A stretch of 60,449 nt of DNA, from assembly GCA_947474395.1 (NCBI GenBank), contig CANJID010000015.1, forward strand, positions 1 to 60,449. Reading direction: 5' to 3'. This document shows positions 18,831 through 41,371 of the stretch, piece after piece. Within the stretch, counting starts at the first letter, position 1. Each line of letters opens with the position of its first letter. A program made the translations under genes and the position numbers. The notes beneath the pieces were generated by a model that worked only from the letters and a program-made list of their open reading frames with translations, searched no databases and was not told where the DNA came from. Source of the DNA: Caulobacterales bacterium (GTDB taxonomy: Bacteria > Pseudomonadota > Alphaproteobacteria > Caulobacterales > Caulobacteraceae).

Positions 18831-18853
18831 CAGACGCGGTTCCTCGGCTCAAC

Positions 18854-18978
18854 TCTGCCCCCTTTGGGGGAAGTGGCCGCGAAGCGGACGAAGGGGGTTG
18901 CAGGGCGCAATGGCATGGGGCGCGCGTTCCAGCCCCCTACCCCGGCTTCGCCGGTACTTCCCCCAGAGGGGGCAGAGT
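18854..18978. repeat. Inverted palindromic element, family 1, copy A (empty)
   Basis: Two inverted arms of about 50 bases each surround a short spacer. Each arm holds a CCCCC-loop-GGGGG hairpin, then a small hairpin with a GAA loop, then GAAGGGGG. The left arm small hairpin is CCGC-GAA-GCGG and the right arm one is CCGGC-GAA-GCCGG, so the stems differ but pair. The element lies in the glyQ-glyS gap, 24 bases before the glyS start. The same arrangement occurs at 41253-41371 and, around a DUF559 gene, at 35454-35929. Confidence 0.85.
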
Positions 18979-35453: not shown

Positions 35454-35514
35454 CTCTTCCCCCTCTGGGGGAAGTGGCGCCCCGAACGGGGCGACGAAGG
35501 GGGCTGTAGGGAGC
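35454..35514 (+). repeat. Left arm of element copy C
   Basis: The arm has TTCCCCCTCTGGGGGAAGT (hairpin 1), a GCCCCGAACGGGGC hairpin (hairpin 2) and GACGAAGGGGGCTG. It begins five bases after the radical SAM stop codon and ends 13 bases before the DUF559 start, so the nuclease promoter or ribosome site must lie in or near it. Confidence 0.85.
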
Positions 35515-35527
35515 CGCGGTTTGCAGC

Positions 35528-35941
35528 ATGGACGCCACTCGCAAAACAGTCAGACGCGCCCGAAGCCTTCGGAAGGACATGACCTCGCCGGAAGTTTTCC
35601 TCTGGCACGAACTGCGCGGTCGCAAGGCAGGCGGTCTGAAGTTCCGCCGGCAGCATCCCTTCGGGCGCTACATTCTCGACTTTTACTGCGCCGAGGTTTG
35701 GCTCGCCGTCGAGATCGACGGATGGGGTCACAACATGGGCGATCGGGCGGCGAAGGATGCTTTCCGCGATCACTGGCTGAGAGCTCAAGGCGTGAAGGTG
35801 CTGCGCTTTTCCGCAACCGACGTGCTCAAGGAAATGGACGGCGTGATCGAGACGATCGTGGCGAGGGCGCGCCCTTCAGCCCCCTTCGTCACGCCGTTCG
35901 GCGCGACACTTCCCCCAGTGGGGGAAGAGTGGGGCGCCTAG
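35528..35941 (+). CDS. DUF559 (Vsr/PD-(D/E)XK-like) endonuclease-domain protein
   Basis: This 137-residue protein is a DUF559 member, related to very-short-patch repair and other PD-(D/E)XK nucleases. It shows RARSLRKDMTSPEVFLWHEL, then LKFRRQHPFGRYILDFYC and WLAVEIDGWGHN. The Asp of ILDFYC and the Glu of AVEIDG are the likely metal ligands. GVKVLRFSATDVLKEMDGVI closes the domain. The final 23 or so residues (from about SAPFVTPFGATLPPVGEE) are encoded by the right palindromic arm. No methylase or repair gene is adjacent, so a stand-alone or element-linked role is likely. Confidence 0.88.
   Translation: MDATRKTVRRARSLRKDMTSPEVFLWHELRGRKAGGLKFRRQHPFGRYILDFYCAEVWLAVEIDGWGHNMGDRAAKDAFRDHWLRAQGVKVLRFSATDVLKEMDGVIETIVARARPSAPFVTPFGATLPPVGEEWGA
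35871..35929 (-). repeat. Right arm of element copy C
   Basis: Read on the minus strand it repeats the left arm: a TTCCCCCACTGGGGGAAGT hairpin, a CGCCGAACGGCG hairpin and GACGAAGGGGGCTG. It overlaps the 3' end of the DUF559 gene and supplies its last codons before the stop at 35939-35941. Confidence 0.85.
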
Positions 35942-41252: not shown

Positions 41253-41371
41253 CTCACCCTTCCCCCTCTGGGGGAAGTGGCCGACCGAATGGGCGGACGA
41301 AGGGGGCTGAAGGGCGCTGCGTGTAGCCCCCTTCCCGGCCTTCGGCCGTACTTCCCCCAGAGGGGGAAGAG
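41253..41371. repeat. Inverted palindromic element, family 1, copy B (empty)
   Basis: This element is the closest full match to copy A: two inverted arms with a TTCCCCCTCTGGGGGAAGT hairpin, a second small hairpin (CCGACC-GAAT-GGGCGG left, CGGCC-GAA-GGCCG right) and GACGAAGGGGGCTG. It fills almost exactly the gap between two convergent genes (stops at 41246 and 41378). It may also act as a bidirectional terminator. Confidence 0.85.

Follow-up and report, generated by a model that had tools for sequence, protein, structure and literature searches.

Structure of the DUF559 unit and its protein

The window, i.e. the whole stretch of 60,449 nucleotides analysed here, contains at 35454-35929 a unit of ~476 bp that consists of an arm, a gene for a DUF559 (PF04480) nuclease and an inverted arm. 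Two shorter elements of the window have arms of the same kind without a gene. The features are as follows.

35454..35515, + strand: left arm of the DUF559 unit, an inverted repeat with 35870-35929
35456..35474, + strand: left arm hairpin H1, CTTCCCCC/GGGGGAAG with a 3-nt loop (sequence; arm DNA fold)
35478..35493, + strand: left arm hairpin H2 (DNA fold; sister arms show many different H2 stem sequences)
35496..35503, + strand: left arm tail GAAGGGGG, mirroring the purine strand of H1, putative third strand (sequence; rule tested on other arms)
35528..35941, + strand: DUF559 nuclease gene, 137 aa (Pfam E 9.6e-32; invariant residues; structure model)
35864..35938, + strand: ~25 C-terminal codons within the right arm, probable read-through
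35870..35929, - strand: right arm of the DUF559 unit (arm pattern; inverted-repeat score)
35909..35927, - strand: right arm hairpin H1 (arm DNA fold)
35888..35907, - strand: right arm hairpin H2 (DNA fold)
35880..35887, - strand: right arm tail GAAGGGGG, mirroring the purine strand of H1 (sequence)
18852..18978, no strand assigned: gene-less two-arm element, arms of the same kind as the unit
41253..41371, no strand assigned: gene-less two-arm element, arms of the same kind as the unit

The inverted-repeat score of the unit arms was 44.5 as compared to at most 13.5 in 20 shuffles, and both arms folded better than shuffles as single-stranded DNA (z -3.4 left, -3.2 right). The left arms of the gene-less elements folded weakly better than shuffles (z -1.9 for the arm at 41256 and z -1.4 for that at 18851). 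Together with the Pfam match and the reality of both gene-less elements, these results bear out the first-pass annotation, which had placed a DUF559 gene inside a palindromic element with the arms of the short elements. Convergent gene ends surround the unit and the 41253-41371 element.

The same annotation had the last 20 or so nuclease codons written in the right arm, and ~25 codons were found there. These codons are probably read-through, as the TCA of the window corresponds to TGA in a second DUF559 copy of the same genome (L002). The reading frame ended inside or beyond an arm in 55 of 100 frame-resolved DUF559 loci. A structure model of the window protein had a pLDDT of 81.3 with values below 50 for residues 127-137; the last, arm-encoded residues are disordered in this model.

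The window protein matched DUF559 with 109.5 bits (Pfam curated cut-off 20.6). Residues E22, D51, E62, D64 and H68 were invariant in 44 aligned sequences (the window plus 43 of 80 loci from named genomes; L160 was dropped for a stop and L179 was also left out) and are intact in the window protein. The closest structure was 3hrl (NGO0050; Z 16.0), which was in addition the sole PDB entry matched by sequence (E 5e-15). The closest enzyme of named activity by fold was the homing endonuclease I-Bth0305I (Z 11.8), and Vsr (1cw0) matched with Z 9.8 and an rmsd of 2.8 over 101 residues. TnsA (Z 7.0) and Holliday junction resolvases (Z 4.7-6.7) matched weakly, in a range where a common arrangement alone may explain the score. 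No PF01797 (RAYT-type Y1 transposase) match at E<=1e-6 was present in the window's genome. The DUF559 match, the Vsr-like fold and this result agree with the earlier assignment of a PD-(D/E)XK-type nuclease in place of a Y1 transposase. A defence-system gene was rejected on weak PADLOC matches (DpdF, E 1e-4; mREase_II, E 2.6e-4). For a phage origin, distant matches came from two phage records and no PHROGs E value was better than 0.0013, and this reading was rejected too.

Most of the DUF559 genes examined had arms around them, in relatives and in distant genomes alike. DUF559 was detected at E<=1e-8 in 86 of 119 family genomes (1-12 matches each among the matches listed), and inverted arms of differing sequence (score >=16) flanked the gene in 27 of the 30 family loci fetched. 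A scan of named genomes yielded 80 DUF559 loci, including Alpha- and Betaproteobacteria, Planctomycetes, Nitrospira, Bacteroidetes, Chloroflexi and candidate phyla. Arm scores of at least 16 were obtained for 62 of these 80 loci versus 10 of 2694 positions taken at random within them, and scores of at least 20 for 57 versus 4; 18 loci fell below 16 and 17 lacked an arm of the mirror type described below. Among the named Caulobacter relatives, L110 and L141 had arms around DUF559 and L130 scored 15.5, just below the cut-off. Discrete units were found at 18 of 20 further multi-copy DUF559 loci. Unit length had a median of 500 bp (n=101, all locus sets); two family loci at contig ends (L054 and L075) were left out of this count and of the mirror-rule, tree and arm-orientation counts. 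No target duplication was detected at unit ends (2.03 versus 1.89 by chance), these ends being known only to a few bases.

Three loci had unusual layouts or positions. In a Deinococcus plasmid (L263, 1398-1870), strong inverted DUF559 arms (score 48.5) carry the hairpin and a C-rich stretch in opposite order. In Sinorhizobium (L258, 2329-3052), the DUF559 gene has an arm doublet on each side, i.e. two arms per side. In a Sphingomonas parapaucimobilis plasmid (L257, 2442-2889), the unit lies between an NAD(P) transhydrogenase alpha gene and the next transhydrogenase subunit gene.

The mirror rule of the arms

Read inward, an arm consists of the H1 hairpin (pyrimidine then purine strand), a linker often containing the H2 hairpin, and a tail rich in G, whose sequence mirrors the H1 purine strand instead of complementing it. 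This rule was tested on arms with an asymmetric 7-base purine strand, 51 of 216 sides having no qualifying H1. In 148 such arms, the mirror fit exceeded the direct fit in 84, was lower in 6 and tied in 58; when identity alone was counted, the mirror was better in 78, worse in 8 and tied in 62. Tails fitted their own arm better than did the tails of other arms in 2347 of 3300 comparisons (214 worse, 739 ties), and in elements with two differing arms the tail fitted its own arm better in 17 cases, worse in 1 and equally in 13. Counted by distinct stem, the rule scored 14 versus 1 with 12 ties. Mirror-rule arms faced the gene at one end or more in 63 of 80 loci (both ends in 34) as compared to 13 of 689 random positions; as an orientation control, outward-facing arms were found in 21 of the 80 loci (both ends in 2).

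In the purine-motif triplex code, an antiparallel third strand places G facing G-C and A or T facing A-T, and T is tolerated at C-G. The tail base facing A was A in 177 cases, T in 78 and C or G in 13, and that facing C was T in 6 of 8, counts that lean towards the code because the positions were chosen under the same code. In the window's genome, with tail patterns fixed beforehand and most stems counted twice, at two lengths, all 15 stems found with a C-ending purine strand had T-starting tails while G-ending ones did not. The mirror rule is as expected of an intramolecular purine-motif triplex, and we infer from these sequences that the arms may fold into one. Mirror-symmetric G-rich tails could alternatively serve protein recognition or form G-quadruplexes. 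No matches to Rfam RNA families were obtained at the gathering score for seven sources.

Gene-less copies, dispersal and presence/absence of the unit

The first-pass annotation had called for a genome-wide count of arms and of empty and nuclease-bearing copies. In the window's genome (3.58 Mb, 103 contigs), the arm pattern GGGGGAAGTN{4,40}GACGAAGGGGGC occurred 32 times and the reversed pattern not at all, and a DNA search returned 107 matching pieces, the query region included. Thirty two-arm elements were listed among the fetched loci, one being an internally deleted DUF559 copy. This 205-bp copy (L082) has kept both arms, the gene start and the last codons and has lost the middle; it is a direct intermediate between the full and gene-less forms. 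Several arm subfamilies coexist. The second DUF559 gene, on contig C34, retains a right arm of a sister family, and its 5' end is cut by other DNA that we read, from its sequence, as an insertion sequence remnant. The genome also has 27 arms of a CCTCTCCC family, which neither of its two DUF559 genes found carries.

Whole units are repeated in one genome (G115), where they lie at four places (L187, L188, L190 and L193) and are 85-97% identical. Similarity stops within ~15 bp of the right arm end in five of six pairs; L187 and L190 have a further ~200 bp of right flank in common past the arm. The left arm is partly doubled in L188 and L193. L187 with its flanks, in which the arms end at 862 and 1376, was compared with 61 genus genomes. 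Among the matches listed, 39 (counted by hand), from 19 other genomes, have their start within 839-866 and their end within 1372-1395; others cover part of the unit, and none joins the left flank of L187 to the unit in another genome. Two genomes (G137 and G167) have both L187 flanks close together with no unit between them.

At the orthologous site L191, the unit was present in 10 of 59 genomes with a match among the matches listed (61 genomes searched). Thirty loci were read, these being the best-scoring ones, so that unit-bearing loci come first. The 20 other loci read comprised four with a gene-less pair of another arm family and, by eye, 16 with neither, two of the latter having a short C/G-rich hairpin. 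In L226, L227, L231 and L233, the interval between the flanks holds a different palindromic repeat of the GTCATCCCGG...CCGGGATGAC type, and the site therefore seems to be a hotspot for several repeat families.

In E. coli, ycjD is a DUF559 gene between sapF and fabI. No upstream arm was detected by inverted-repeat score (10.0) and arm-like repeats lie downstream; as ycjD lacks an upstream arm, E. coli may hold a settled relic. A 246-bp query from downstream of ycjD matched 111,907 places in 5375 of 5426 E. coli genomes (median 23 per genome). Five of seven dispersed copies read had the stem GGGGAGAGGG and the tail GGGTGAGGGG, a string that fits the mirror but not the direct orientation, and two were near variants. 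The repeats form inverted pairs at fepB-entC and yijF-gldA. The fepB-entC region was matched across 80% or more of the query length in 2752 of 5375 genomes, and three strains lacking the pair have uninterrupted flanks save for ~185 bp (by eye, the alignment program having misplaced the gap). The occupied allele is ~185 bp longer than the empty one, which exceeds the arm pair, and this difference is not polarised as gain or loss; a 3-base TAA repeat is possible there (by eye). The alternative allele at yijF-gldA carries what we take to be a classical REP. The ycjD-linked repeat may be BoxC, which it resembles in copy number: the accessible text of PMC2267715 gives 22 BoxC copies in its table and 32 from literature that it cites.

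The unit is dispersed and its presence varies between genomes. The comparison of orthologous loci for empty sites, proposed at the outset, thus found presence/absence variation at the L191, L187 and E. coli fepB-entC sites, and arms fixed at such loci as simple terminators were not what was seen. The earlier picture of an autonomous element with non-autonomous relatives is likewise upheld by the internally deleted copy, the near-identical copies in one genome and an arm number that tracks DUF559 number.

For this last relation, two patterns that catch only two arm families detected 5552 arms over the 119 family genomes. The median was 38.5 arms in DUF559-bearing genomes (none in 2 of 86) versus 3 in DUF559-lacking ones (none in 14 of 33). 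Arm and DUF559 numbers were correlated (Spearman rho 0.56; Mann-Whitney p 6e-7), such p values being too small because genomes are phylogenetically non-independent. Nonetheless, 9 of the 33 DUF559-lacking genomes had 20 or more arms. PF01797 matched at E<=1e-6 in only 16 of 119 genomes and did not correlate with arm number (rho 0.10, p 0.29); in the 103 genomes without a Y1 match, the DUF559 effect persisted (medians 38 versus 3). On the nuclease tree, which omits those 22 of 129 loci that lack arms, arm class (assigned by a crude pattern script) changed 35 times as compared to a shuffled mean of 60.6 and minimum of 53. Arm and nuclease distances were also related (Mantel rho 0.29; null maximum 0.14). 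This co-variation partly reflects genome relatedness and shared ancestry.

A candidate mobile element and its known counterparts

Copies of the ~500-base unit, and of its ends without the gene, lie dispersed across many bacterial genomes, and the system thus appears to be a type of mobile DNA not recognised before. The best reading, to which we assign a probability of roughly two in three, is a small autonomous mobile element whose nuclease acts on its own structured ends and moves gene-less pairs in trans, i.e. a transposable system comparable to REPINs and RAYTs and driven by a Vsr-like PD-(D/E)XK nuclease with presumed catalytic activity. The first-pass annotation had likewise suggested that the nuclease recognises or mobilises the palindromes, as we infer here. 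Under this reading, a unit of ~450-630 bp would be the autonomous element, with the Vsr-like DUF559 nuclease as its sole gene, and the nuclease would act on the structured ends flanking that gene. The G-rich tail would fold back on the hairpin as an antiparallel third strand in a purine-motif triplex, often capped by the second hairpin, and the nuclease would nick or cut at the triplex, probably during replication and on DNA in single-stranded or cruciform form. Host repair or replication would complete insertion. Gene-less inverted pairs would have arisen from the unit by deletion and be moved in trans, in the way proposed for REPINs and RAYTs.

Alternatively, DUF559 could be a passenger or a Vsr-like repair enzyme caught between two arms that something else moves. 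The accessible text of PMC12907096 (2026) proposes from genetics that VsrA of C. crescentus, a DUF559 protein, is a very-short-patch repair enzyme, needed for a damage response in cells without the methyltransferase ScmA, and places it in mismatch repair; that text makes no mention of palindromes or inverted repeats. The Vsr-like fold of the window protein and the nine DUF559-lacking genomes that keep many arms point the same way. However, differing arms flank DUF559 in several phyla and co-vary with the nuclease, the unit repeats as a whole, and Y1 transposases, the one other mover tested, are unmatched in 103 of 119 genomes, so that we regard this alternative as unlikely. Somewhat less likely still is a housekeeping resolvase for arm hairpins or triplexes that limits the damage from repeats spread otherwise, or a gene kept for that purpose. 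Both unit arms are strong structure formers and the Holliday junction resolvases align, if weakly, but a host resolvase needs no place inside a repeat, no multicopy state (1-12 per bearing genome among the matches listed) and no arm boundaries. A fixed role of the arms at the ends of genes, as bidirectional terminators or as mRNA-stability hairpins with DUF559 incidental, would suit the convergent gene ends around the unit and the 41253-41371 element; presence/absence at orthologous sites and co-variation with the nuclease make this explanation improbable, and a terminator role may be a by-product. Least probable of all is movement of the arms in trans by RAYT or IS200-type transposases: the architecture resembles REPINs, yet the PF01797 results given above led us to reject it.

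Known bacterial transposable elements are grouped by enzyme chemistry, i.e. DDE, HUH, tyrosine, serine and reverse transcriptase. A compact element with a Vsr-like nuclease and ends written in a third-strand code would, if true, add a class. The odds appear even for the full proposal of a new class with DNA triplex-hairpin ends and a PD-(D/E)XK nuclease as only enzyme, present in many phyla including E. coli K-12 as YcjD and its repeats, supplying the missing enzyme of orphan palindromic repeats and recasting VsrA-type proteins as mobile-element enzymes. If it holds, the nuclease would be a candidate enzyme type for palindromic repeats without a transposase of the kind described in the accessible part of PMC3733652, and the VsrA damage-response finding, as given in the available text of PMC12907096, would be open to a mobile-element nuclease acting on structured DNA as an alternative to mismatch repair. 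The question becomes testable in E. coli K-12 and Caulobacter.

Text searches of the openly licensed PMC literature found no description of such a DUF559 element, in line with the first-pass remark that no system of this kind was known, and nothing joining DUF559 to repeats was seen in the accessible portions of PMC12306157, PMC5896051 and PMC10969869. The nearest counterparts are the REP/REPIN-RAYT systems, which, as described in PMC3116915 and PMC3733652, share small inverted doublets between genes, a dedicated nuclease gene beside them and several families per genome. Arms in the window's genome were indeed found as inverted palindrome doublets dispersed between genes. Unlike these systems, the DUF559 unit has a PD-(D/E)XK rather than a Y1/HUH enzyme and the mirror rule at its ends, and its gene is multicopy and lies inside the repeat pair, whereas RAYTs are, in the accessible text of PMC3116915, single copy and apparently not self-mobile. 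A conserved GTAG tag at one arm end was absent, by eye, from the listed arms, and an inner GTAG of the window's left arm is missing from the right arm.

I-Bth0305I, the nearest named activity by fold, is a site-specific homing enzyme and, unlike the DUF559 unit, is not known to have flanking structured ends. The likeness to Vsr, a repair endonuclease that nicks at T:G mismatches, and to VsrA lies in the Vsr-like fold of the window protein and in the DUF559 domain that VsrA contains according to the accessible text of PMC12907096. The gene-less copies resemble MITEs as deletion derivatives with inverted ends; they differ in that the DUF559 unit has no detected target duplication and the full copy encodes an enzyme other than a DDE transposase. 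CIR repeats were rejected as an identity since GANTC was not enriched (3 of 30 own-genome elements versus 84 of 500 random windows). Finally, CGTC-tagged REPs are described in the accessible text of PMC3733652 as dominant in Alphaproteobacteria, apparently without a dedicated transposase, with a CGTC tag, an 8-9 bp stem starting with A-T pairs and a CCA tail. By eye, the other strand of some arms reads CGTC-stem-loop-GCCA at H2, but the H2 stems seen here start without the A-T pairs, and another hairpin and a tail are also part of the arm.
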